Source: Carnegiea gigantea (lineage: Eukaryota; Streptophyta; Magnoliopsida; Caryophyllales; Cactaceae). From it: a stretch of 64,000 nt of DNA. The DNA lies in NCBI GenBank assembly GCA_029747015.1, contig JAKOGI010000052.1, positions 1,491,501-1,555,500 on the forward strand, written 5' to 3'. Of the stretch, positions 3,555 through 62,200 are shown piece after piece. The notes beneath the pieces were generated by a model, which was given only the letters and a program-made list of their open reading frames with translations, did not search any database and was not told the DNA's origin. Position 1 is the stretch's first letter; each line of letters begins with the position of its first letter. The position numbers were made by a program, and so were the translations under genes.

Positions 3555-4470
3555 TCCAAGTATCCTGAATGGGTTGATGCTATGGTAGAAGAGTTCAGTG
3601 CGCTTGTTTATAATGACACTTGGAACCTAGTTCCTTCTCACCCTAGTATGAACTTGTTAACTTGTAAATAGGTGTACATGGTTAATAGTGTAATACAGAT
3701 GGGAGTATTGTGCGATGAAAAGCTCTATTGATTGTTCGTGGGTTTGATCAGCAAGCCAGACTAGACTATGATGACACATTTAGCCCAGTTGTAAAGCCCA
3801 TTACCATTAGAATCATTCTCTCCCTTGCTATCTCTCGTGATTGGGTTATTAGGAAATCTGATGTTAAGAGTGTCTTCTTACATCGTGGTCTTACTGAAGA
3901 ATTCTACATGACCCAACAACAGGGATTTATACATCCTGATTATCCTTATTATGTTTGTAGATTGAAAAAGTCATTATATGGATTGAAACAAGCTCCTAGA
4001 GCCTGGTTTCACGAGTTCAGTAGTTTCTTAGTTTCCTTGGGCCAAACAGCCTCTTCCATGTTCATTTTTCAGGCTTCTCATGTTCTTCTCATTCTCTTAC
4101 TATATATGGATGATATTATCTTCACATGCATCTCGTCTGCTTATCTTTACCATTTCATCCATCTCCACTTTGGATAATTTCCTATGAAGGATCTTTGTGA
4201 TCTTCACTTCTTTCTTGTGGTATATGTGGTGCGTACTCCCAATATGCTATTCTTACTCCAATCCAAAAACATTTAGAATCTTCTTATGCATTTTCAACTC
4301 ACCAAACACAAACATGTTTGCACCCTGCTTCCATCTCGGACTATGTTATCTTTAATGGGTGGGGAGTTACTTTCAGATTACATTGAGTATAGGAGTATGG
4401 TTGGAGTCCTGCAGTACTTAACTACGACTAGGCCAGATATTGTCCATACAATTAACCTTGTTTTCTAATT
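3555..4470 (+). pseudogene. copia reverse transcriptase remnant
   Basis: After the LINE the copia frame resumes with SKYPEWVDAMVEEFSAL. At 3728-4177 come LIVRGFDQQARLDYDDTFSP, VVKPITIR, KSLYGLKQAPRAWF and LLYMDDIIFT, the copia RT palm blocks including the catalytic YMDD. Stops and frameshifts lie near 3670, 3725 and 4177. The 4286-4468 segment carries the RT-RNase H connection (PTEYRSMVG-like, QYLTTTRPDIVHTINLVF). Confidence 0.88.
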
Positions 4471-6045: not shown

Positions 6046-6203
6046 CTCCTTGAGCTTCTAATGCCAGCTTACGTCTGAATAGCATGTATATCCAACTCTC
6101 ATCTCACACAGCAGTAGTCTAGCTAAAACTAGGCTAGTTTTACAATTTTAATATTTTTGAATTTCCATTGTTTTTTGAATTATTGATTTTTCATTTCTGA
6201 AAA

Positions 6204-6797
6204 ATGGCCAAGGGCCGGAGACCGATCTCGACCCAGAGCGATCGACTTTTGGGGTTTGGGAACTATAACTACGGCCACGGCCAACACCACCACGATGAGT
6301 CCGAGTTTGGGGAAGAGGAGGTGTGGTCGACGGTGGAGGCTGTGCGGGACCACCAGGGCCACCTCCACCACCACGGCGGCGGGTGGACCTTACGCGCCAC
6401 CACTGAGGGTGGGAGAACAAGCCGAGCCCAGCAGCACGTGGGTGGTTTGTCCCTGGCATTTGATCAGGAGAAAACGACGTCGTCAAGCAGAATCATGCAC
6501 CAGTTTGGCGGAAATGGTGGGGCCCCACGAGGGGCGAGGCATGATGCCACGTCAGCTCCAGTGAGCGTTCCTGATTGGAGCAAGCTCCTCCGATTCGACT
6601 CGGTCGAGTCAATGCACTACTCGGATGAGGATGACCGGATCGGGGACTCAGGTACGGAGCCGCCCCATGAGTACTTGGCTCGGAGTCGGAAAATGAATGC
6701 GATGTCGGTTTTTGAGGGAGTGGGTCGGACCCTCAAGGGTCGAGATCTGAGCCGGGTCCGGGATGCAGTTTGGAGCCAAACCGGGTTCGAAGGGTAA
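6204..6797 (+). CDS. Senescence regulator S40 / DUF584 protein
   Basis: Intact intronless gene of 197 residues. The start is chosen for the AAAAATGGCC context and because it begins the family N-terminus. The family signature is C-terminal: SAPVSVPDWSKLLR (117-130), a Ser/Asp-rich acidic linker, PPHEYLARSR (153-162), then SVFEGVGRTLKGRDLSRVRD (168-187) and VWSQTGF to the end. Residues 20-60 are His/Gly-rich and variable. S40 proteins are small plant-specific nuclear proteins, typically 120-200 residues, first known from senescing barley leaves; some Arabidopsis members alter leaf senescence and stress responses. Their biochemical activity is unknown. It is one of only two intact host genes here and is much more GC-rich than its surroundings. 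It stands alone between a dead copia and MITE-like repeats. No stop, frameshift or missing block is visible. Family membership is secure; expression timing cannot be read from sequence. Confidence 0.93.
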   Translation: MAKGRRPISTQSDRLLGFGNYNYGHGQHHHDESEFGEEEVWSTVEAVRDHQGHLHHHGGGWTLRATTEGGRTSRAQQHVGGLSLAFDQEKTTSSSRIMHQFGGNGGAPRGARHDATSAPVSVPDWSKLLRFDSVESMHYSDEDDRIGDSGTEPPHEYLARSRKMNAMSVFEGVGRTLKGRDLSRVRDAVWSQTGFEG

Positions 6798-10976: not shown

Positions 10977-11447
10977 TGATCCAGAAAATATGGCTTTTCT
11001 GGGAAGGCCCACTCGTTTCCAATAGTGGGCCAAGCCCAGTCAGGCGTAGTGGGCCCTGGCGGGACCTTAGGGGCTTCAACTAGAGGCCCAAGCAAGGCAA
11101 GCAATTCGGCAGCCCATTTTGGGGGCCTGCAAGCATGAAATTACTGTTTTACACCTTGCCACAGGAGTTATAAATACCCACTTACCCACCTTGAAAAAAG
11201 GATTCGCACTCTAGCATAATTTCTCATACTCTTTATATTCTCTCTCTTAACTGCTTTTGTCTCTCATTGAGACCTGCCTTTGACTTGACTGTCAAAGAGG
11301 CGTTCCCCGGACCAAAACCTGGGGGTGCCTTTTTTGCAGGTTCGGCATCTGAGGAGAGGATCGCCAGCTAGTCTGCACGTGCCGTCGAGTAAGCCCCCTC
11401 TCTCATCCCACGTCATCCCCAGCAACGCACGGAAAGTTCCGAAAATA
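10977..11447 (+). repeat. 5' LTR of the Tat element
   Basis: Aligns end to end with 23285-23750. It contains GAGTTATAAATACCCAC (TATA box region, 11166-11182) and a pyrimidine-rich stretch before the PBS. The right edge is set by alignment to the 3' LTR terminus (TTCCGAAAATA here, TTCCGGAAACA there). Confidence 0.92.
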
Positions 11448-11483: not shown

Positions 11484-13202
11484 ATGGTAGTTAGTGAAGT
11501 TACACGAGCACGGGCCAGGAGAGATAAAGTGCCGCAGCAGAAGCCCCGGCACCCCGAGGTCCAGGGCGCCTCGAAGACCTCCCGGGCAGATCCCTGCTTG
11601 GTCGGCCAGCACCCGGCTGAGTGGGAGGCCTACGCCACAGTGGACGCACTCAAGAACTTCATGTCCACCATGACCGACACCATTATGCTCAATTATCCGA
11701 GCTAGTGAAAAAAGCGGTGGAGGTCGCGAGCTCCATGAGGCCTCTTCCTCGTTTCGAGTATGAGCCCGTCACAAGTTGCAAGCGCTCCCATAGACTCGCC
11801 CCCGTGGTTTCCTATCGCCATAGTGAGGGAATGAAAAAAGCCCCTCACGCTGACAGAAACAGCCGATTGCGGGGAGAGAACCCTGACCGATCCGTCGGGC
11901 CGAGGCCTGCACAGCCGCCGTCCAAGCCATGGACAGCCAGCAAAATCGACCACGACCTCAACGCCATATGCAACGCACTCCCGATGAATCGCCTGGTTCG
12001 AGGAGCAGGAGCAGACCTCGAGGCCTTGAGGGGAAGCTTTAGGACGACGAAGAACCCCAGAGCATCACTCCGACTGCAAACGCATGTGCAGTCCCCCTCG
12101 TGACAGGTCCGGGCTATGGTATCACCGGCACGACCGGATTCCGCTCTGATCCCCAAGGGTAGGTCCTCCCCGAAGGAGTACGTTAGTGGTGGAGGTAGAA
12201 AGGCACCCGGAAACTCCCATTAAGGTTTCCAGCACGGCCGTCCTGATGGGACCCGTTCCTTTTTCCACTCTATTTAGAGCAGAGATTGTCAACGCTCCGC
12301 GCCACAGAAAGGTGAAGATGCCTACTGTGGACCTATATGATGGGACCACTGACACGGAGGAACACTTGGGATTGTACCCGACAGATGTACGTCCAGGAGG
12401 TAGATGATGCCGCGCACTGCCGATTTTTCCCCGCTATCCTGAAGGGGGTAGAACAGTCCTGGTTTAGTGATTTGGTGCCGGGAAGCATCTCGTGTTTCCA
12501 GGACCTGGCTGATAGGTTTGTTAGCCAATTCATCGCCGGCCACAAGGAGAGGCGACCCAGCATTTACCTTTCCAAGATCAAACAGGGGTCACGGGAGTCC
12601 CTGGCAGACTTCGTCAAGCCTTTCCACCAGGAGGTAGTCTTGATCCCAACCTAGAGGACAGGGTGGCATCTCCTTCTTGAACGGCTTGAATAGCGGACAG
12701 TTCAAGTTCTCTTTGGCCGAGCAGAAGGAGACCACTCTAGCGAGCAGAAGGAGACCACTCTAGCGAAGGCATTCAGGAAGGCGGCTGACTTCATTCGTGT
12801 CACTGAGATCTAGGCCGAAGGTACAGATGCCCCCAAGAAGACTAAGGTTCCCATCGATAGAAGCCCTGGCTAAGGGGACAAGAGACCGCGCTTGGAGGGC
12901 GTCGACTCATGGTTCACCACGGACCTCAGAACATCCTCATGGAAGTGAGGGGGCACCCTATGCTGAGAAGACTGCCCCTGATGACCTCAGCTCCAAAACC
13001 CCACAATGCGCGGAAGTACTGTGAGTTCCATGAGCAGAATGGGCACACGACTGCTGGGTGCCGGAAGTTAAGGAAGGCCCTTCACGAGCTGGCGGATAAC
13101 TGTCAGATTGACCGGTTTTTGAAGAAAAGTCCGCGCTTTCTTTGGCAGGAGTACGAACCCATGCGGCCCGACCCCAAGATAAAGAATGCTCCACGGAGAT
13201 AG
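11484..13202 (+). pseudogene. Tat gag (nucleocapsid/capsid) pseudogene
   Basis: An ATG at 11484, 16 bp after the PBS, opens the gag reading frame. Conserved parts are MPTVDLYDGTTD (12319-12354), HCRFFPAILKGVEQSWFSDL and SISCFQDLADRFVSQFI (12415-12540), KIKQGSRESLADFVKPFHQE (12573-12635), and the zinc-knuckle-like YCEFHEQNGHTTAGCRKL (13018-13072). Frames shift near 11700, 12390, 12650 and 12800, and stops are present. Gag would form the particle that packages element RNA. Retrotransposon gag family. Confidence 0.87.
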
Positions 13203-14039: not shown

Positions 14040-15118
14040 CCACCATAAAGGTACAAAAGCTACTTGAAGCAGGTTTCATGAGAGAGTCTCAGTACTCGGA
14101 AGGGATCTCGAATGTCGTCCCAGTTTAAAAAACCTAATGGGACTTGGAGGATGTGTATAGATTTCACTGACTTGAACAAAGCCTGCCCAAAGGACAGCTA
14201 CCCCATCCTAAAGACCAACAAGCTAGTGGATGCAACAGCCGGGCATGCCCTACTAAGCTTCATGAACGCCTTCTCAGGGCATCACCAGATACCCCTGTGC
14301 CCCAAAGACCAGGAGAAAATCACGTTCATAATCGATCGAGGTCTGCATCGCTATAAGGTAATGCCTTTTGAGTTGAAGAACACGGGGCCACTTACCAACA
14401 GCTAGTGAACAAGTTATTCGAGCCCCTCACCGGTCGAAGCATGGAAGTTTATGTAGTTGACATCATAGTGCAGAGCATGGTTGATGCCGAGCATGCCCAG
14501 GACCTGCGGAAGACTTTTGATATCCTTCAAGTGTTTAGGTTGAAACTTAACCCAAAGAAATGCGTGTTCGGAGTCAGATCAGGCAAGTTCCTCGGATTCA
14601 TGATCAGCAGTTGGGGGATAGAAACTAATCCGAACAAGATCCAGGCTGTATTGGATATGAAGCCACTGCGTAACATCAAAGAGGTCCAACGATTGATTGG
14701 ATGTATCGTGGCCCTGGGACGGTTCATGTCGCGGTCCGCTGACAAATTCCAGCCTTTCTTTCGTATCTTACGAAAGCGCCAACTTCGTTTGGGACTAGGA
14801 AGCGGACGAGGCCTTCTAAACACTAAGACATACTTGGCTAGTCTGCCTAAGATAGCTAGTCCTCTCCCAGGAGAAATACTCCTCCTATACTTAGCCATTT
14901 TAGAACAGGCCATAAGCAGGGTTTTGGTAGTGGAAAGAGCCAAAGAACAGATCCCAGTTTATTATGTAAGCCACACTCTACCAGGAGCCAAGGTGAATTA
15001 TCCTTTGATAGAAAAGTTTGCTTACACATTGGCGATGGCCAGCCAAAAATTACGGCCTTACTTTGAGGCACATAAAGTGACCGTCCTCACCGACCAACCC
15101 CTGAAGAATGCCCTTTAA
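14040..15118 (+). pseudogene. Tat reverse transcriptase and RNase H pseudogene
   Basis: RT begins VQKLLEAGFMRES (14050), then NGTWRMCIDFTDLNKACPKD (14130-14190), HQIPLCPKDQEKITFI and YKVMPFELKN. A frame break at 14400 precedes FEPLTGRSMEVYVVDIIVQS, where the catalytic YVDD reads YVVD (first Asp replaced by Val). KFLGFMISSWGIETNPNKI and IKEVQRLIGCIVALGRFMSR mark the end of RT. RNase H follows with PVYYVSHTLPGAKVNYPLIE and ALAMASQKLRPYF-type blocks. The mutated active site and the stop at 14403 make it inactive. Confidence 0.9.
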
Positions 15119-15149: not shown

Positions 15150-15727
15150 GTGCAGTGGAACTGTCGCGGCACGACCTCATCTTCGAGACTCGGTGGGCCA
15201 TTAAAGCTCAAGCTCTGGCAGACTTCTCAGCAGAGAGCACCAACACTGCTGCGGACAGTGGCTCTTCCCCTCCTTCTTGGAACCTCTATGTGGACAGCTC
15301 GTCCACCAAGGATGGGAGTAGGGCTGACCTGATTATTGAGAGCCCCTGAGGGGAATGGCATGAGCATGCCTTGAAGTTCATGTTCAAGGCATCGAACAAT
15401 GAGGTTGAGTACGAAGCGTCGATAGTAGGAGTACAGTTATGCTATACCACGGGGGCTGATTCGGTCCAAGCGTCTTCGGACTCTCAACTCGTAGTTAGCC
15501 AACTCAACGGAGAATATAAAGCAAAGGACGATACTATGGTGGCCTACATTTGGCAGAGACGCGAGGCCACTAAGTTATTAAAACACTTCTCAATCACTCA
15601 CATACTGCGGTCTAAGAATCGGCAAGCCAACGCTCTGTCTAAGCTAGCCAGCTCTCTTGAGGACGGGAAACTAAAACATATTCAATGGGAGACTTTAACG
15701 GAGATCTATCCTAAGAACTTGGTATAG
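15150..15727 (+). pseudogene. Second (archaeal-type) RNase H of the Tat element
   Basis: AIKAQALADFSAE, WNLYVDSSSTKDGSRADLII, then after a frame change FKASNNEVEYEASIVGVQLC, DSVQASSDSQLVVSQLNGEY and THILRSKNRQANALSKLASS. This is the extra RNase H typical of Tat/Ogre/Retand elements, with Asp (VDSS), Glu (EYEA) and Asp (SDSQ) of the active site visible. A stop at 15347-15349 interrupts it. Normally integrase would follow; here the coding stops at 15727. Confidence 0.9.
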
Positions 15728-15835
15728 CAGTAATCTACGAAAATACTATCATTAGTACTTTCTATCATTAGTACATTCTCCATGTAATAAATGCAATGGC
15801 TGCGAAGGCAATTTTGGATCCATCTCAATATCTTA

Positions 15836-16335
15836 CACCTTTAGCCCCAAGGGGCGCTAAGGGTTCTACAGCACGGCCTCAGAGCTGGTCATTAACCTTC
15901 TAGCCCCAATAGGGGCTAAGGGTCCTACAGCACGGCCTTAGAGCCGGTCGCTGCACCTTTAACCCCAATGGGGGCTAAGGGTCCTTCAGCACGGCCTCAA
16001 GGCCGGTCGCTACACCTTTAGCCCCAATGGGGGCCGACGTCCTTCAGCTTGGCCTCAGGGTCGATCGCTACAACTTTAGCCCCAATGGAGGCTAAGGGTC
16101 CTTCAGCACGGCCTTAGGGCCGGTTGCTACACCTTTAGCCCCAATAGAGGCTAAGGGTCCTTAAGCACGGCTTTATGGCAGGTCACTATACTTTTGCCAC
16201 CAGTGGAGGCTAAAGGTCCTTAAGTACGGCCTTAGGTCGGTCACTATACCTTTAACTCTTATGGGGGATAACGGTCCTTAAGCATGGCCTTAGGGCCGGT
16301 TGCTATACCTTTAGCCCCAATAGAAGCTAAGGGTT
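15836..16335 (+). repeat. GC-rich tandem array A, about 60-bp period
   Basis: Roughly eight units built from CCTTTAGCCCCAATGGGGGC, TAAGGGTCCTT, AGCACGGCCT and AGGGCCGGTCGCTACA. Units contain short palindromes (CCCCAATGGGG, GGCCTTAGGGCC). The same unit recurs at 19862-20330. The array lies between the pol remnant and the 3' end of the antisense gene. Confidence 0.9.
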
Positions 16336-16613
16336 CTTACCAAAGGCTCCATCATATAGGGACCCCATCCCCCACTTGTTGTTTCGCTTAGGGGCCAACA
16401 TCTCACAGGGTATAAGCAAATTGGCAAGGCAAATGCAAAAGAAAACAGGTAAATAGGAGTAAGGGAAACAACAAGTGAAGAGATGAGCAACAAAGCTCAA
16501 GACTCCATTGCAAAAAGTTGGAAATTTTTCTTTGAATGAATTGAGGATTACAAATGCCAATAAAGGGTCAGGGGGCTAAAGAAGAAAGGAATGACAACTA
16601 AAGTCTCCAGGCA

Positions 16614-19290
16614 CTAGGCATTTGGATCTTCGTCATGGTCACTACCCTCATGCGCCGTGGCTTTGTTGTTCTCGTTACCAGGGGACCCAGCCTCGCCTCT
16701 CAGAGGCATAGTCTCCTTGTCATCTAGGCCATTCTCCTCTATTGCAGGTGGGTTGAACTCCACCAGCTTGGGGTTCTGCCCCTCGGCCTGGCCAAGATGG
16801 CGATCCTCCACATATTGGACATACACCTCAAAGTAGCCTTCTATGCGGAAGGCATTGGGTGCCAAAGTCACCAAAAGCTCCCAAAAGAACTTGGCACTCT
16901 CGTCGTGTACCCGCTTATAGCCCTGGTCCTTGGCTTTCCTGAACTTCTCCTCTTCGGCCGCGGCCTTCGAGCAGGGTTCCTCTAGTTAGCACTACAGGCC
17001 TTTCTTTTCGAACTCCAGGGCCTCCTTCTCCTTCTTTAACTTCTTCGAGCGGTGCTAGTACTTAGCTGCCGCCTCTTCTGACTTTTGGCGCTTTGATTGA
17101 AGGTCACCCATTTGCCCCCACAAGAGGGTATAAGAACTCTCAAGGTTGCGGATCTGCTTCTCCAGGGTAGAAACAGATGACCTCGACCTCACCACCTTCA
17201 ATGCTCAGGCAAAGGCCTGGAGAACACCCAACATGGTCAGTTGAGGAAGGACAGCAATAAACAACATAAATGACATAAACTCAGCTTTACCTCAGCAATG
17301 GCCATTTGCTCTTCGTCGATTGTGGGCAGCTCTGCCGAGTCCGATGGGGCTAATGCCCATGACTTGGCCAACTTCTCCACCAAGGCGAGCTTAGCGGAGG
17401 TGCCGGCTGCCAAGAAATTCACGGTCGGGGCCTGGGTATTCACCGAGGGCTCCCCCAAGGCCTGAGGCGCGGCTGCTGGCTTCCCCGAGACCCTCCGACA
17501 GAGGGAGACCCCCATGCCTCGTCAAAGGCCAAGCGGTCTTCGGACCGCCGATGGTGGGCCGGCTTCGCGACTCCTTTGCCTTTTGACGGAGGAGCCCCGG
17601 CCCTCAAGGGGGTGGAAGCGGACGTCATGGTCGCATCCCGCCCGTCCTCGACACATGGGCACTTGCGGGCACCCACGTGAGGAAGATTCAGTGACACTAC
17701 GAGAGGCTTTTTGCTGCGTGGTGCCAAGGATGGCGCCTGTAAAAAGGAAACATACGTTAACGTTCTTTACTCCGAAAAGGCTATAAGGAAAGACGACAGA
17801 AGGATCAGCATTTGAACCTTCTTTGCTTGTATCTCCACGTGCCTATGCCGCTCTCCCTCACAAACCCGCTCGGCCTCGGCAGCGATTTGCTTTGCGGTCG
17901 CTTGCCCGGTCTCAAGGGGTGACAACTTCTCCTACGCTTGTTCTGCACAAGATAAAAGAGAGTTAAGTCAGAACCAAAAGAAAAGCTCACACGCAAGAGG
18001 GACATCAAGTACCCTTTCTATAATTTTTAAGAATAAAGAGGCCCACGGTAGCCAAAAAGAAGTCGTTAGCAAAAAATTTCAACTTAAGAAGCCAGTTCAA
18101 GGGCTCCCTATCACTGGGTTTGCTTCGTTTTCGCTTGGGCACATTCTCGGCCTCCACTATCTTGGCCATGAAGGAGGGAATCAGCTTATGACCACAGTCC
18201 TCCCAAACAAAAAAGTAGAACCAGCGAGCCGTCTTCGTCTCAGCCTCGGTCGGCTCCCTAAAAGGGTTCGGAACCGGCTTCCCGTCATTCCAATCGGGAA
18301 GATCTCCCCAACCCGTTTCCCGGCATACGAAAAGAGAGTTGTATTTTCAATTTTTAGCTTTGGACTGCTTCTCGATGGCCGTCATGAAACCCTTCTTATT
18401 GTTAAAACAATACCACCCAAGGTCCCCGGTCACGCTGGGAGCCCTTTGGACTATATGGACTAATCCAAACGCGCGACCTGTGCAAGTTAACCCACATAAC
18501 TCGGACGTCGTGATGAAAGAACGTATGTTGTGCCAAGACGTGGGCACAATCTGTGCAGGCGCCATCTCATACTTATTCAAGATTTCCACAATGACCGAGT
18601 GGAGCAGGAACCTGACGCCATAGGAAAAGGCCGCCCGCTAAATCGCTATGCATTTGAGGGGTGGCTTATTTACAGTAGCATCTGCCTCAAGGATTATGAA
18701 CTTATATTTTGCGGGTAAGAGACACTTATCTTCTAGCGTCGGTTTCTTCAGGGATGCCGCGATCTTTGGGTTGGGGAAGTGTGCGCTCGGCCCATCCTGG
18801 ATATCTGAACGTGCGGGAGCCCTTGGAAAGACAGTCCCCTTGGCCACAACTTCGCGGGCTGGCTCTTCCCGAGCATGGCCCCTATTCTTTAGTACAACCC
18901 TTCCTGAGCCATTTGTTTCCCCCTCCGAGGAAGAGCTAGTGCTGGTGGACTTAACCTCTATGCTCGACCTATGGGAGCTACAGGTAAAGCGAACATTACC
19001 TTTAGAAGTTCCCTCGGCTAACAACTTGTCGGGACTCCTCAGTCGGTCAGTCATCCTAATCTTGGCCATTCCACGTTCTTGAAAGCCAGGCATATGATTA
19101 ACTGCTACATCAATTTCCCATGGATAGACAACATCCTCCTCAATGTTGAGGATACTGGGAGTACAGGAGTACTCGCAGCTAGACCATGAGGGGGTGTCGG
19201 GTGCAAATATTGGCACCGCGGAAGGGATTTCCTTAGATTCCCTAAACTGATTCTTTGGGGGAACGTGTGCGACCACCCGTCCATCAATTA
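16614..19290 (-). pseudogene. Antisense gene of the Tat element, Transposase_28-like
   Basis: On the opposite strand to gag-pol. Reading from 19287 down: a Ser-rich N-terminal region (19276-18638); then YEMAPAQIVPTSWHNIRSFI, RAPSVTGDLGWYCFNNKKGF and KYNSLFVC (18580-18320), and FREPTEAETKTARWFYFFVW-type sequence (18270-18200), which match the putative gypsy-type transposon domain (PF04195-like) often encoded antisense in plant Tat/Grande elements. Farther down are Ala/Pro/Ser-rich linkers, a Glu/Lys-rich coiled-coil zone (17230-16980) and the segment FRIEGYFEVYVQYVEDRH with an acidic C-terminus (stop at 16614). Stops and possible introns separate the blocks. It has its own TATA box. Family name is from motif recall, not a search; function unknown. 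Confidence 0.7.
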
Positions 19291-19664: not shown

Positions 19665-19861
19665 CAAGGCAGGGGAGGAAGAAGGGAGGCGCCCCTTTCC
19701 AAGTGCTCGAGGAAACGTAACACTGCTCAGCCCCCGACACATGGCACCCAAGCGCCGTGTAACCACCTGAGGACTAAGGATTTGATCATTCATCCTGGGA
19801 CTATCCCTCATAGCTACGGCTTAGAGAAGGCCAAGGATCCAAGAGCTCGACCGCAGGGCCG

Positions 19862-20330
19862 ATCGTTACACCTTTAGCCCCGCTAAGGGCTAAGGTTCTT
19901 AAGCTCGGCCTCAGGACCTGTTGCTACACCTTTAACCCCACTGTGAGTAAAGGTCCTTAAGCACGGCCTTATGGCCGGTCGCTATACATTTAGCCCCACT
20001 GGGGGCTAAAGTCCTTAAGCACGACCTTAGGGCTAGTCGCTATACCTTTAGCTCTCATGGGGGCTAAGGGTCCTAAGCTCGGCCTCAAGGCCGGTCACTA
20101 CATTTTTAGCCTCATAGGGGGCTAAGGGTCCTTAAGCTCGGCCTCAGGGCCGGTCGCTACACCTCTATCCCCAATGGGAGTTAAGAGTCCTTAAGAACGG
20201 CCTTAGAGCTGATCGTTATACCTTTAGCCCCAATGAGGGCTAAGGGCCCTTAAGTACGACCATGGGATGGGTGCTACGCATTTAGTCCCCTAGAAGGGAC
20301 TAACAGCCCTCAGGCACGGCCTAGGCACTA
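19862..20330 (+). repeat. GC-rich tandem array B, about 60-bp period
   Basis: About eight units of the same repeat as 15836-16335 (CCTTTAGCCCC.., GGGGGCTAAGGGTCCTTAAGC, CGGCCTCAGGGCCGGTCGCTA). The array separates the promoter of the long antisense gene from the first small antisense ORF, so the two arrays bracket the antisense gene. Confidence 0.9.
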
Positions 20331-20503: not shown

Positions 20504-20960
20504 CTACTCCTCATCACTAGAAGGGGAAGAGGCATCACTCGACTCCAAGTTTTCTTCTTGGCCGCCTGCTAGAGTGAGTTTGATCCCCGGATTGGCAAGC
20601 CTTAGGATCTGCGCTCTCCGAAGAGCTTCGTCATTCTTCCCCAACCAAGATTCAAAGATATCCCAGCTCAGATATTTCAGAACTGACATCCAGGCGTCGA
20701 CCACGACCTTACTAGTGACTCCCAACTCCATAGCATCGTTAAGCACTATGGAGTAAAAGATAGCGTGAGTTAGTCTCGGGAATGCGGAAGTCTCAGGCAG
20801 ACTCCTCGGCCATGTCAATGTCAAAATAAGGGTAAAGACTATGGTAATTCTCGAGAATCGACCAAGGGGCACGAGAGATCTCCCTAAAATGCCAGATGAA
20901 GTTTTCCCTACCGTAATCAGCCGCCTGCTCGGAGCTAAGGAAGTCGAGAAACACCACGGG
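20504..20960 (-). pseudogene. Small antisense ORF, unit 1 of a tandem triplet
   Basis: First of three paralogous antisense ORFs. Its open part (20504-20872) contains THAIFYSIVLNDAMELGV, SVLKYLSWDIFESWLGK and an acidic Ser/Asp-rich tail. The upstream half reads ADYGRENFIWHFREIS and FDIDMAEESA in a neighbouring frame with an in-frame stop, and the start codon aligned with unit 2 has been lost (CCGTGG instead of CATGG), so this copy is broken. It is similar over its length to the ORFs at 21553-21966 and 22406-22975. No known domain is recognised. It has a TATA box and a palindromic G-box upstream. Confidence 0.72.
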
Positions 20961-21064
20961 ACAAGATCAAAAGTGAGATTCTCTCTCTATATCACACTCG
21001 CTCTCTCTCTACAAAGGTTAAGGAGGCTGGTTAAGTGATCTTCCATGAGAGGTTCCAATCCACA

Positions 21065-21153
21065 CTTATAGAAGGAAGAAGGTAGAGTAAAGGACAATGC
21101 GCCCCTAGAGGAGGCGGCAAAATCAAGGCACCATTTCGCTTACGCCACGTGGC
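21065..21153 (-). promoter_or_regulatory. Promoter-like module of unit 1
   Basis: Reading on the minus strand: GCCACGTGGC (21144-21153, perfect palindromic G-box), then CTATAAG (21065-21071) about 73 bp downstream, then a GA/CT-rich leader. The unit 2 module has the same layout and much shared intervening sequence. Confidence 0.55.
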
Positions 21154-21552
21154 ACTTACACACTCGAGACTGCCTTAACATCTCCAAACTCCCAAAATGA
21201 GCTCGCGGTCCTGAGGCGCATCCCATGGGCCGACTGCCACGAGTTCAAGACTCTAAGGCCAATTGTTAGGGCTTCAGACATGGCCCAAAGGACGAAAGCT
21301 GCACCACCATCTCCTAAAGGGGTCAGGGGTTTGACAGGCATAAAAGATTGATCACTACAACCTTGAGAAAATGTTATGAGGAAAGAGCATAAAAACACTT
21401 GTGAAGAAATCAAGCCCTTGCATAGAAGGGCGCCATTTTATTCTCTTTCTCATTAAAAACAAACCAACCTTACGAGGGCGGGGAATGTGATAAAGGAACA
21501 AACTACAAAAGAGACCTAAGACTACTTCTCATTGTTAGAAGGGGGTGGGTGG

Positions 21553-21966
21553 TCATTTGAACCCGAGCGCTCCTCCTGATTGTTCACTGGCCCGAGGCCA
21601 CCTCCCGAATGGGCCCGTCAGAGGAGCTGCGCCTCCAGAAGGGCATGCTTGTTGACACTTAGCCAGGATTCGAAAAGTAGTCCCCCATAGACCCTTGAGG
21701 GTCATCTTCAAGTCCCCGGCCATGTCCCTGCTCACCACGGGTAACTCCACAGCAGCATAAAGCACCATAGCATAAAACGTGGCCTGGACGATCTCAGGAA
21801 TGTCAAAGTCAGGTGTCGCTTCCTCCGCGCCAGGAAGAATGAAGCTAGGGCACAGGTCCCGGTAATCTTCTGGGAGCAGGCGAGGAGGACACGAGGCCTT
21901 CCTCAAATGCCATTTAAAGATCTCCCTAATGTAATCGGCCATTTCCTTAGCAGGGGGAGAGGCCAT
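21553..21966 (-). CDS. Small antisense ORF, unit 2 of a tandem triplet
   Basis: 137-residue open frame, the only unbroken member of the triplet. MASPPAKEMADYIREIFKWH starts it, then LLPEDYRDLCPSFILPGAEE, DFDIPEIVQATFYAMVLYAA, VELPVVSRDM and MTLKGLWGTTF. Units 1 and 3 align along the whole length: a W-H/Y motif near residue 19, a DY-DLCP-type box, acidic AEE, DF/DY-IPE-type box, a hydrophobic helix and a Trp near the end. The tail after residue 103 looks diverged (Pro/Gly-rich). I recognise no family, signal peptide or membrane segment. It is likely a retroelement-carried accessory ORF; whether it is translated is unknown. The start is chosen because upstream sequence is CT-rich leader following the TATA box. 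Confidence 0.55.
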   Translation of the reverse strand: MASPPAKEMADYIREIFKWHLRKASCPPRLLPEDYRDLCPSFILPGAEEATPDFDIPEIVQATFYAMVLYAAVELPVVSRDMAGDLKMTLKGLWGTTFRILAKCQQACPSGGAAPLTGPFGRWPRASEQSGGALGFK

Positions 21967-22001
21967 GACAAAGAGAAGAATAGAGTCTCTCCCTCTAGAA
22001 T

Positions 22002-22005
<4 letters not shown>

Positions 22006-22044
<39 letters not shown>
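22006..22044. repeat. (CT)n microsatellite in the unit 2 leader
   Basis: About 19 uninterrupted CT dinucleotides. On the minus strand it is a (GA)n run between the unit 2 TATA box and its ATG, in the predicted 5' leader. Unit 1 has a shorter degenerate CT tract at the same place. Confidence 0.9.
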
Positions 22045-22095
22045 AAAGAATTGGGAGCATGCTCAAGTAACTCTTCACAAGAATTCCAACTCCAT

Positions 22096-22185
22096 CTTTA
22101 TAGAGGGAAGCATGGGGAGTGAAGGACAACATGCCCCCTAAAGTGGTTCCAGAACCATGGTACCACTCTACTCACGCCACGTGGC
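22096..22185 (-). promoter_or_regulatory. Promoter-like module of unit 2
   Basis: Minus strand: GCCACGTGGC (22176-22185), then TCTATAAAG (22096-22104) about 72 bp downstream, then the GA-rich leader and the ATG at 21966. Spacing is nearly identical to unit 1. Confidence 0.58.
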
Positions 22186-22405
22186 ACCTGAGTGCTCAAT
22201 ACCTGTTTCGAACGTCACTAACCCCTTAACACGGAGGCTCGCAGCCCTGTAAGAGGGCCCAAAGGTCGTTCGCTCTAGCCATAGACGTGGGGATCAGGCC
22301 TCGAGAACCACGACCCTTCAATCGCAGGATACCAAAAGATCAAGCCTCATTGGAACAGCCTACAAACCAAATTAGCTAAGCAAGAACACAAGACCAGAGG
22401 CAGGG

Positions 22406-22975
22406 TCACAAAGGAAAAGAGGTCATTTTATTATGAATGTTCAAGGGGTACATGATTAAAAAAAAATTTAAAAAAAGATGAGGAAGACAAGATGGAAGAA
22501 AGGAAATGCACATCATAAAAACGCTATAGGACTGGATTCTATTCCTCGTTGTCATCACTGGGGGGGAGGACGCGCCTTCAGACCCCGAGCTCTCCTCATT
22601 GTCCTGATCGCTGTCCGCTTTATGACAGCAGACCTCCAAGATTCTGCCCCTGTTATGCCCTACCCATGCCTGGAAGGTGCTCCACTGCAACTATTTGAGG
22701 ATTGATTCCATTATGCCAATCATCCATCCGGGCAGAACACCCAACTTCACGGCATTATTAAGGAGTATCACAAGGAACATCACCTGGGGCGTCTCGGGAA
22801 GGTCATAGTCGAGGGCATACTCCTCAGCCACGACTAAATCGAAGCCCGGGCATAGGTCCTCGTAATCAGACGAGAGGGGCAGAGGAGGAAATGCAACCTC
22901 CCTACGGTACCAGTCCAAGTTTCCTAGAGCATGGAGCATCATTTCATCTGTTGTTAGTGAGCGGGGGAACCCCAT
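22406..22975 (-). pseudogene. Small antisense ORF, unit 3 of a tandem triplet, one internal stop
   Basis: The frame opens MGFPRSLTTDEMMLHALGNL and continues LSSDYEDLCPGFDLVVAEEY, LDYDLPETPQVMFLVILLNN and AVKLGVLPGWMIGIMESILK. It is then cut by a single TAG (22691-22693), beyond which the same frame continues LQWSTFQAWVGHNRGRILE and an acidic Ser/Glu-rich tail. The stop sits where a Gln codon (CAG) would fit. It aligns with units 1 and 2 throughout. CTTATAT at 23011-23017 is a TATA candidate; a diverged G-box-like element (GACACTTGGC, 23141-23150) is farther upstream than in the other units. Confidence 0.7.
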
Positions 22976-23261
22976 TTAGAAGAGAAGAAACTTTGGTACA
23001 AGGGAAATCCCCATATAAGGTATGAAATGTGGCTCCAAAACAACACCTTGTTGTACTCCAAAGTGGATGACTTCCCATGCCACTGGCCAGCCTCGAAAAC
23101 CAATGTTGCCTCAGAAGCCCAAACATGCCCCTGGTCGACAGCCAAGTGTCAGCTTAAGATGGGGTAGCCGGCTAAAGGCGGATCGTTTCCCGAAGACCCG
23201 CCGACCTCCATTACGCGAGTGCACTCCACATTTCACCTGACTACTCGTGCAGGCATACATA

Positions 23262-23284: not shown

Positions 23285-23750
23285 TGATCCAAAAAATATG
23301 ATTTTTCTGGGAAGGCTCACTCATTTCCAATCATGGGTCAGGCCTAGTCAGGCATAGTGGGCCCTGACGGGACCCTAGGGGCTCCAACCAGAGGCCCAAG
23401 CGGAGCTAGCAGTTCGGCAGTGCATTTTGGGGGTCTCCAAGTACGAAATTATCATTTTATCCTTTGCCACGGGAGCTACAAATGCTTACCTACCCATCTC
23501 AGAAAAAGGATTCGCACTCTGGCATAATTTCCCATATTCTTTATATTCTCTCTTTGCTGCTTTTATCTCTCATTGGGCCGCGCCATTAACTTGACTGTCG
23601 GAAAGGCATTCCTCGGACCACAATCCGGTGTGGCTTTTTTGCAGGTTCGGCATTTGAGGAGAGGGCCGCCAGCTAATCTGCGTACCATCACATAAGTCCG
23701 CTCTCTCATCCCACGTCATCTCCAGCAATGCACGAAAAGTTCCGGAAACA
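23285..23750 (+). repeat. 3' LTR of the Tat element
   Basis: Partner of 10977-11447. Begins TGATCCAAAAAATATG and ends TTCCGGAAACA. The TATA box position is degraded (ACAAATGC where the 5' LTR has ATAAATAC). Differences between the LTRs are largely C-to-T or G-to-A. Confidence 0.93.
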
Positions 23751-29719: not shown

Positions 29720-30460
29720 TATATTTGTTGGGCAAATCCCATCGATTACCTTTTTCTGAAGTAGAACATTGTTATGGAACTCTTTTTTATTTAATACACT
29801 CATATGTTTGGCAGTCACCACTTCTTTCTAATTTGAGTTATTGTGATTATGCTTGTGTTTGTGGATGATTGTACTCTTTTACGTACGTGGATTTATCCCA
29901 AGACACATAAATCTGAAGTGTGATTGCGTTCCAAATATTGGTTGAAAATATATCTGATTGCAAACTAAAATTTTTTCAAATGCAAAGAGTATGATAATGG
30001 TCCATTAAAAGAGTATCTTATTCATAATGGCATTTATTTTCCAAAATCACGCCCCAACATTCTTCAACAAAATGGGGAGCTGAGCACAAATATCGTCATA
30101 TCATAGAAATGGCCTGCGCTTTTCTTCTTGATGCTAATCTGCCTGGACAATTCGGGGTGGATGTAGTATTAATTAGCTACCCACTCCAATTTTAGACAAT
30201 CGCTCACCATTTGAAAAATTGTTTCATAAAGTTCCTGATTATTCCTTTTTACAGGTGTTCAGTTTGAATGTTTTCCTACTTTTTTTACTTGCCAACAAAT
30301 GTTGGCTCCACATTCAAAACGATGTGTTTTTATTGGTTATACTTCAAATTACAAGGGTTACCGATGTTTAGATCCAACTACGGGGTGCGTGTATGTTATT
30401 TGTCATGTCTTGTTCCATAAAGATGTCTTCCCTTGTATTGAACTTCAGTCTCCTGAGTCT
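29720..30460 (+). pseudogene. copia integrase remnant
   Basis: Broken frames give SHRLPFSEVEHC-like and YPKTHKSEV-like blocks, then MACAFLLDANLPGQF, and at 30299-30460 RCVFIGYTSNYKGYRCLDP and CHVLFHKDVFP, the C-terminal integrase blocks. A Ser/Pro-rich linker follows to about 30930. Confidence 0.82.
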
Positions 30461-30999
30461 CGGGCGCACAACATTCCTCCACGTCAGTTAGTAATCCTTT
30501 GTACTCTTCCTAACCCATATGCTCCCCATCCTGACCCACTCATTCCTTCTTCCACTTTTGGTTCACCAGGGGCGTTTGTGTTAGGCCCAAATCATGCCCC
30601 ATCATCTCCCTCCCATTTTCGGCTCCGCGTCTGCTTGCCCGAGCCAAAGCCCAACTCCAAGTCTTCCTTCTTCAGTTTCTCCCACGTCTACCATCTCTGG
30701 GTCGGCATTCTCAGCCCTCCCCTCCACTGATTCGTTGTGTTCATTAGAAGGGCAATCCAATCTTCTTCAACCCATTCATGCTCGTCTCCTGTCACTTCTT
30801 TTCCTTAACTCGGTCACACTTCTTCCTCTCTTGCACATATTTCCAGCCCACCCTCCTTCCCTACTTCAACTTCACTTTCCTCTAGTGTCATTCCCACTCA
30901 TCATCCTATGTAAACTAAGTCTCACTCAGACAATGTGAAACCCCGAATATTTTTTCTTTACATACTCAATATCATGAGTATGAACCAACTTCCTACTCA

Positions 31000-60638: not shown

Positions 60639-62200
60639 TCACTTCCACAATTGGCTCACTAGAAAACTTCTTGTGGAACTTTCTCTATCCATATCATGTC
60701 TAGCAACTATGGGACCCTCAAGTTGTTTACCACTTCTTAAGATAATACAATTGCAATGCTCCTTGGGGGTTAGGCTCAGACGTGCTAGGTAATCTAGCCA
60801 GAGGTGCAAAGAAGAGCTAGCCTGTTGGACAATTTGTGATTCCAACTTCTGATTATGAGTAGTTAGCAAATCAAACTTATAGGCTAATTGCTTAATGTAC
60901 TTATCTTGCTTTTATTGCTCCAAAAGCATGCTCTCTATCATAGCCTCTATATTGGACTTTTGTGGAGCTTGTACAGGAAAGTTAGGTCTATGAAAACCAA
61001 GAGACCTAACATTGGCTTGGGGGAAGGGAAGAGGATCACTCCTATAAGACAGGTTAGGATGGTTTTTCAGCCAATTGTAACGATTAAAGTATGGTTCATG
61101 ATTCAGTCTCGATTGGAAGTTGTTGACATATGTAAATTGCTCATAAGAGGTTTGGGCAAAAGGATTCCAACTTGACACTGCAAAGTCAAATGATCACAAG
61201 ATCCACAATTATCACAAGTAGGATGGGGGGGCACCTGCATTTACTCTATTAACATTCAAACGATAAAGCCTTTGAGTCACGATAGCCACTTTAGCTGTAA
61301 GCAAAGCTAAAACATCAATATCAAATTTACCTCTGGTCCTCTTGGAACGAGTCCTCTTATTAGACTATTGGTAATTGTTGAGCATCATTCCTTTGTCAAG
61401 TTGTATGTCTCATCCTCTGTTTTGTTAATTAAAGTATCTCCCACTGAAGAATCAAATCATAGACCTCATGGCATGTGTGACCCTATAATAGAATGTTTGC
61501 ATAATCATCCACTTTAGAGTGTATGATGTGGGCACAATTGCGGTAGCCCCTTGAAGCACTGCCAAGCCTCATAAAGCGATTCATCCTCTTATTGAGCAAA
61601 TGAAGCGATTTATTTTTTCAACTCGTCATCTTATTAAGGGGGAAGAACTTAGCAAGGAATGCTTTAGTGAGCTTATCCCAAGTGGTGATGAGCTCATCCC
61701 AAGTGGTGATCGATCCTTGTGGAAAAGTGTAGAGTCACACCCTCACCTTCTCTCTATGAGAGAACGAAAATAAGCAGAGGTGGATTGTATCGTTGGAGGC
61801 ACCATTGATCTATAACTTGTCACAAGCCTCTAGAAAAACTGAGAGGTTCAAATTTGGATCCTATATAGGGGTACCATCAATTTGAGATTGTTTCATAATT
61901 AAGATTAGAGATGGCTTGAGCTCAAAGTTATTGGTAGTCACAACGGGTCGAATAATGCTTGGAATGAGACATTGGACCCCCATCGTGACATAATCCCTAA
62001 GGGTCCTTATGTGTTCATCTTTGCCACCCGCCATCTTAGGTATGGGTTTGACCACTTCTAGCTCCTTTTGTGGCTTTCATTATCTCTTCCTTCTATGAAA
62101 AGTTCACTCAATCTTGGGTCAAACTCAAAGAGTTCTCCTAAACCAAGGGGTTATGTGTAAAAGTTAAGATAACCTACACACAATAAAAGAATACAAAAGG
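60639..62200 (-). pseudogene. Athila-type gag remnant
   Basis: From right to left: RTLRDYVTMG, SIIRPVVTTNNFELKPSLIL (62000-61900), EACDKL-like, SFSHREKVRV-like, LYTFPQGSITTWDELTTAFL and AKFFP (61780-61620), the retrotransposon gag domain. Then SSWNPFAQTSYEQFTYVNNF, NWLKNHPNLSYRSDPLPFPQ (61178-61030) and, at the end, LTPKEHCNCIILRSGKQLEG (60770-60710), which is the block that closes Athila gag. Numerous stops. A tandem duplication of AGTGGTGATGAGCTCATCCC lies at 61680-61712. Confidence 0.85.

Follow-up and report, generated by a model that had tools for sequence, protein, structure and literature searches.

Three paralogous antisense coding units in a decayed Tat/Retand-like retrotransposon of the saguaro cactus

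The antisense units

The window analysed here is a 64-kb stretch (GC content 39%) of the genome of the saguaro cactus, Carnegiea gigantea (contig JAKOGI010000052.1, positions 1,491,501 to 1,555,500). Of chief interest in it is a cluster of three short coding units lying antisense to the gag-pol genes of a long terminal repeat (LTR) retrotransposon, between the antisense TRP28 region of that element, with its second tandem array, and the 3' LTR. All three lie on the minus strand, at 20504-20966 (unit 1), 21522-21966 (unit 2) and 22409-22975 (unit 3), as placed by alignment and by hidden Markov model (HMM) matches, which for unit 1 cover both of its pieces.

The units had been described as paralogous in an earlier note on this DNA, made from the letters alone, and local protein alignments, each set against 500 shuffles, bear this out. 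The alignment of unit 2 with unit 3 scores 141 (z 23.0), that of the N-terminal part of unit 1 with unit 2 scores 87 (z 16.9), and that of the same part with unit 3 scores 71 (z 12.7); in each case 0/500 shuffles reach the score. The C-terminal part of unit 1 aligns less strongly, with z 6.6 against the listed frame of unit 2 (1/500 shuffles), 6.3 against unit 3 (0/500) and 7.1 against the second open piece of unit 3 (0/500). Against the other frame of unit 2 it reaches z 13.7 (0/500) in an alignment that partly covers out-of-frame letters; cutting this back to the C-terminal part leaves a score of 93 across 51 codons. On these alignments the three units are paralogues. A profile derived from the units together with their relatives, run over the window in six frames, gave besides these three places only rows at E 0.96 and 3.1.

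The earlier note had treated 20504-20960 and 22406-22975 as single open reading frames (ORFs), which they are not. Unit 1 consists of an N-terminal part (20796-20966) that closes at a stop and a C-terminal part (20504-20872) in a different frame, and unit 3 is made up of two open pieces separated by an in-frame stop at 22691-22693, its original C-terminal end being unclear; because of these frame changes and stops, the two intervals are composite regions rather than ORFs. The frame listed for unit 2 (21553-21966) fared better, since only this unit keeps an uninterrupted core, although its frame shifts towards the end: about the last 35 of the 137 residues are read out of frame, and the homologous C-terminus is encoded in a different frame, which ends near 21522. 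An AATAAA on the minus strand follows unit 2 at 21437-21442, 80 bases past the stop that closes its C-terminal frame; another, at 22427-22432, stands near the end of unit 3 within the second open piece, and none was found after unit 1.

The host element

The element is bounded by LTRs on the plus strand whose aligned parts, 10977-11445 and 23285-23748, are 82.1% identical over 469 columns (p-distance 80/464 columns, Jukes-Cantor distance 0.196). With LTRs only 82% identical, this copy is old, and it is broken. Just past the 5' LTR, at about 11452, stands a candidate primer-binding site, TGGCACCGTCTGTGGGG. Downstream, also on the plus strand, follow gag (12316-12651; PF03732, E 4.8e-08) and a reverse transcriptase with RNase H in two open pieces (14082-15118), with RVT_1 matches at E 5e-06 (26.8 bits, under the cut-off of 29.6) and E 7.9e-09 and an RT_RNaseH match at E 4.5e-10. 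A second RNase H-like domain lies at 15350-15727 (RVT_3, PF13456, E 2.8e-14), which we read as the aRH domain typical of Tat elements; aRH is given as a mark of the Tat clade in PMC6317226, which, like the other papers cited here, is drawn on in part. An LTR pair thus encloses gag-pol with reverse transcriptase and both RNase H domains, and the element appears to be a Ty3/gypsy element of Tat/Retand-like type. No integrase was found among the 20 window pieces run against Pfam, and the plus strand of 15724-16618 holds no open piece of at least 45 codons, so that no integrase is seen there. The integrase may have been lost in this copy, or the family may be non-autonomous; autonomy is accordingly not claimed for the element.

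Between pol and the 3' LTR, on the minus strand, lies a larger broken antisense ORF region (about 16.6-19.3 kb) that includes a piece with a TRP28 (Transposase_28) domain at 18350-18637. Its match to PF04195 (E 6.3e-04, 20.4 bits) is under the Pfam cut-off of 26.2, and its strand and place fit. The interval from pol to the 3' LTR thus carries antisense ORFs, as in the aORF-3R arrangement, and in this copy they are broken. Two tandem arrays flank the TRP28 region as though it were a module: one of 59-bp units (8.6 copies, 15834-16338) and a related one of 58-bp units (7.0 copies, 19844-20254), the two being about 76-79% alike.

Promoter DNA

Upstream of units 1 and 2, the G-box palindrome GCCACGTGGC occurs at 21144-21153 and 22176-22185, respectively. 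These are its only two occurrences in the 64 kb, and none of 100 dinucleotide shuffles contains it. The TATA boxes lie at 21065-21070 for unit 1 (TATAAG) and 22097-22102 for unit 2 (TATAAA), so that a perfect G-box ahead of two of the units, as first proposed, is found in each case 73 bases upstream of the TATA; the two G-boxes are 1,032 bp apart, as are the two TATA boxes. A (GA)n leader precedes unit 2 at 22005-22043. All of these features are on the minus strand. The regions upstream of units 1 and 2 can be aligned along about 240 bp that take in G-box, TATA and GA-rich leader (z 28.2), and by this alignment duplication of the whole cassette, promoter and ORF together, is seen for units 1 and 2 only.

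Relatives in saguaro and in metagenomes

Relatives are here the protein-database matches to two queries, unit 2 and a unit-3-type sequence, in a word-based search that distant relatives may escape. The former query matched 6 proteins (3 from C. gigantea, 3 from metagenomes) and the latter 23, of which 2 were also among the unit 2 matches, giving 27 relatives in all: 20 from C. gigantea, Cgig2_020297 and Cgig2_011982 among them, and 7 from metagenomes, with open frames of 86-298 residues. Among 10 pattern matches in viral contigs there was no relative. Metagenome protein P0003, a relative of unit 2, runs at about residues 130-171 into the same alternative frame as the C-terminus of window unit 2 (21553-21660), which could mean that the two decayed separately or that both go back to one old frame change.

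Counting as a unit each domain at E <1e-8, 13 of the 27 relatives, all from C. gigantea, join two or three units in one gene model. In 13/13 of these the first unit is closest to window unit 3 and the second to window unit 2, so that the order unit 3 type, unit 2 type is the same in all 13; in P0013 the second unit is nearly tied with unit 1 (103 vs 99), and in P0024 the two units overlap by 11 residues. The units recur side by side and in the same order in saguaro, and their multiplication therefore came before these copies spread.

A tree of 38 unit domains, taken from 44 domain matches at an independent E-value (iE) of at most 1e-9, divides them in the same way. One group holds 8/8 first-of-chain units together with window unit 3, and the other 11/12 second-of-chain units together with window unit 2 (support 90/93 and 89/88), the twelfth being that of P0013; the bootstrap is unsettled, with 1/35 inner branches starred. 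The tree omits short rows (the second unit of P0020, the first of P0018 and the C-terminal part of window unit 1) and rows of fewer than 50 residues (the first units of P0021 and P0024 and the N-terminal part of window unit 1), and the first unit of P0006 (iE 1.1e-9) just misses the cut. Window unit 1 is absent from it because both of its parts were among the dropped rows. Another alignment, A2, in which the unit types fell into separate columns, was set aside.

Counterparts of unit 1 are fewer. P0008, P0014 and P0023 terminate in segments closest to window unit 1, as does the segment of P0013 when extended to its end (145 vs 104), so that a unit-1-type end is visible in about 4 of the 27 relatives. 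By these comparisons we can be firm that units 3 and 2 recur, and less so for unit 1. In P0008, P0014, P0021 and P0027, a translated GA-rich leader can be made out by eye directly before the start of a unit, and leader plus ORF therefore seem to be repeated there too.

Selection and the encoded proteins

Nei-Gojobori counts over three ungapped paralogue pairs, in all six frames, give ratios of nonsynonymous to synonymous differences (pN/pS) of 0.43, 0.55 and 0.55 in the coding frame, the lowest of the six frames in 3/3 pairs, with upper bounds of 0.67-0.77 by codon bootstrap. Past constraint on the units appears likely though not proven, and the support for selection is modest.

The absence of a recognisable domain, asserted in the earlier note, has held up: in Pfam, no family reaches its curated cut-off for the window pieces of the units or for 10 of the 27 relatives, and NCBIfam likewise gives none at cut-off for the 20 members of alignment A1. 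Three weak matches were judged to be chance: HMG_WDHD1 in P0018 (E 0.004, 17.5 bits vs a cut-off of 51.6), MHCassoc_trimer in the same protein (E 0.0047, 17.4 vs 25; weak also in P0002, P0007 and P0021) and gspI in 1 of the 20 A1 members (E 0.031). A sequence-profile search of the PDB gave no match at E <=10. Descent of the units from the gag or TRP28 of their own element was also considered and rejected, there being no similarity to those pieces. Nine proteins examined, of the 27, share an acidic serine-rich tail, with 7-11 aspartate or glutamate residues per chosen 30-residue window, and the product of each unit was probably a small helical protein bearing such a tail.

Interpretation

We favour, with moderate confidence, the reading that the three units belong to an antisense accessory gene family of a Tat/Retand-like LTR retrotransposon family of cacti and have since decayed. 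The ancestor would have been a small gene of about 150 codons with a G-box and TATA promoter, a GA-rich leader and an AATAAA, set antisense between the TRP28 ORF and the 3' LTR. Tandem duplication would have multiplied it, the copies diverging before the family spread, and the array would since have been copied along with the element. Host bZIP or bHLH factors use this type of G-box. Such factors may bind the G-boxes and drive antisense transcription by RNA polymerase II; with at least two units having a G-box/TATA promoter of their own, we propose that they were so transcribed without the LTR promoter. The unit proteins would then be accessory factors, most likely nuclear, that regulate the element's own expression, as has been proposed for Grande GENE23 and the TRP28 proteins.

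Several observations weigh against this reading. None of the three proteins can be made whole from this copy. The upstream DNA of unit 3 lacks a clear match to that of units 1 or 2 (z 2.4, with 10/300 shuffles as high; z 0.9, with 51/300), and because of this the earlier picture of a repeat made up of promoter plus ORF has to be limited to two units; of the TATA box claimed for every copy, those of units 1 and 2 stand, in aligned DNA, while the TATA-like string ahead of unit 3 is unsupported. Ahead of unit 3, a stretch that may be a worn G-box region (23222-23246, minus strand), with 19/25 bases as in unit 2, is suggestive only and not significant (z 0.9). The conservation of unit 1 is the weakest of the three, because the third unit of P0007 scores 110 with window unit 2 vs 70 with unit 1 and because a query with the C-terminal part of unit 1 gave 3 candidates, none at E <=1. 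That the saguaro relatives themselves lie inside LTR elements is a link we only infer. As for selection, the LTR pair, a non-coding control, gives pN/pS of 0.53-0.72 over six frames, its minimum falling under 2/3 of the coding values, and part of the signal is therefore mutation bias; units 2 and 3, taken alone, show a weak third-position excess (p 0.08). The check for codon constraint called for earlier thus favours the coding frame, but only modestly. Two AlphaFold models, all helices, are poor, with mean predicted local distance difference test (pLDDT) values of 64.1 and 70.7 and predicted template modelling (pTM) scores of 0.32 and 0.33, and Foldseek against the PDB gives 8 and 2 matches at E <=10, none at 0.001, so that no fold is assigned; the HMM profile, for its part, does recover the three units. 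The earlier suggestion that the element carries an accessory gene family is supported by the side-by-side recurrence of units in constant order. The copies in the window are broken, whole-cassette duplication is seen for units 1 and 2 only, and the role first suggested, in silencing or sense transcription, is conjectural.

The gene models that link two or three units in 13 of the 27 database proteins could also be taken at face value, as products of one spliced antisense gene with repeated domains, in which unit 3 would supply the first exon or exons and units 2 and 1 the later exons of a polydomain protein. This seems unlikely to us, given that an ATG, a G-box, a TATA and a GA leader all belong to unit 2 itself, that unit 1 has the same upstream elements, and that AATAAA stands both near the end of unit 3 and after unit 2; moreover, some of the C. 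gigantea models bear the label LOW QUALITY, and some continue through the GA leader, as may happen with automatic models. The upstream elements could themselves be the functional part, the protein being irrelevant: tandem antisense promoters would then yield antisense RNA that interferes with gag-pol transcription or forms double-stranded RNA, and the ORFs would be remnants. Units 1 and 2 do remain clearly alike in their promoter DNA, and antisense double-stranded RNA is put forward as an alternative role in the part of PMC7264820 used here. We nevertheless hold this improbable, for the similarity between the unit proteins is far above chance, the relatives have kept open frames (though any entry in a protein database is an open frame by construction) and pN/pS, modestly, is lowest in the coding frame.

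The lack of resemblance to the gag or TRP28 pieces of the element would fit a host gene family captured once and carried as a functionless passenger. We think this very unlikely, as all 20/20 source-named relatives are from C. gigantea, though distant ones may have escaped the search, and no Pfam or NCBIfam family is reached at cut-off. Beyond the accessory gene family that we favour lies a more elaborate version of it, speculative and rather doubtful: a cactus Retand-type family with at least four antisense accessory genes, namely TRP28 and three sub-specialised small helical proteins with acidic tails, with twin G-box/TATA promoters on at least two of them, through which host stress or light factors would switch the accessory proteins separately from gag-pol. 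If true, it would give plants a counterpart to the sets of accessory genes found in complex retroviruses.

Comparison with known elements

Steinbauerova and others have reportedly surveyed extra ORFs in plant Ty3/gypsy elements. The antisense ORFs of Retand elements are widespread and of unknown function, and a gene that has been multiplied, kept in order and diverged allows internal comparisons, of the residues and promoter parts that are kept, which single-gene elements do not offer. The closest known parallel is gene23 of the maize element Grande, an antisense ORF transcribed from its own promoter, whose protein GENE23 is nuclear (PMC7264820). By the description in that review, gene23 is like the cactus units in its antisense orientation, its place between pol and the 3' LTR, its own promoter and its lack of a known domain; it differs in being one gene, whereas here there are three diverged tandem units and a separate TRP28 region.

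Retand-lineage elements are described in PMC11963269, as far as that paper is used here, as carrying an antisense TRP28 ORF (PF04195) and tandem arrays, and for TRP28 domains DNA binding is predicted (PMC7264820, PMC11963269). Several antisense ORFs per element do occur, 104 antisense ORFs being listed and 63 clusters analysed (PMC11963269). The cactus element differs from those elements in its extra array of small paralogous ORFs and in the distance from the end of aRH to the 3' LTR, about 7.6 kb as against 2,933-6,566 bp, figures that are not strictly comparable since the integrase is missing here. The units also resemble the eORF-3'R class of PMC6317226, in which a Ty3/gypsy element carries an additional reverse ORF in its 3' part; there, however, the cut-off was 250 codons, while PMC11963269 tallied ORFs of at least 600 bp and shorter ones only if they bore TRP28. 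Units of about 150 codons would thus be missed by both published surveys, whose size limits can hide short accessory genes. The literature searched, seen mostly at the level of titles and the openings of abstracts, describes no LTR element with paralogous antisense ORFs arrayed in tandem. Grande already offers the case of a lone antisense ORF with its own promoter, and what appears to be new is a conserved array of short ones.

Other features of the window

Elsewhere in the window, a host-like gene with a Senescence regulator domain lies at 6201-6794 (PF04520, E 4.5e-38), and there are Copia-type remnants, with RVT_2 at 3719-4174 and SH3_retrovirus at 1486-2103 and 30239-30727. The plant small nucleolar RNA snoR71 (RF00097, 47.2 bits) is found at 61517-61624.

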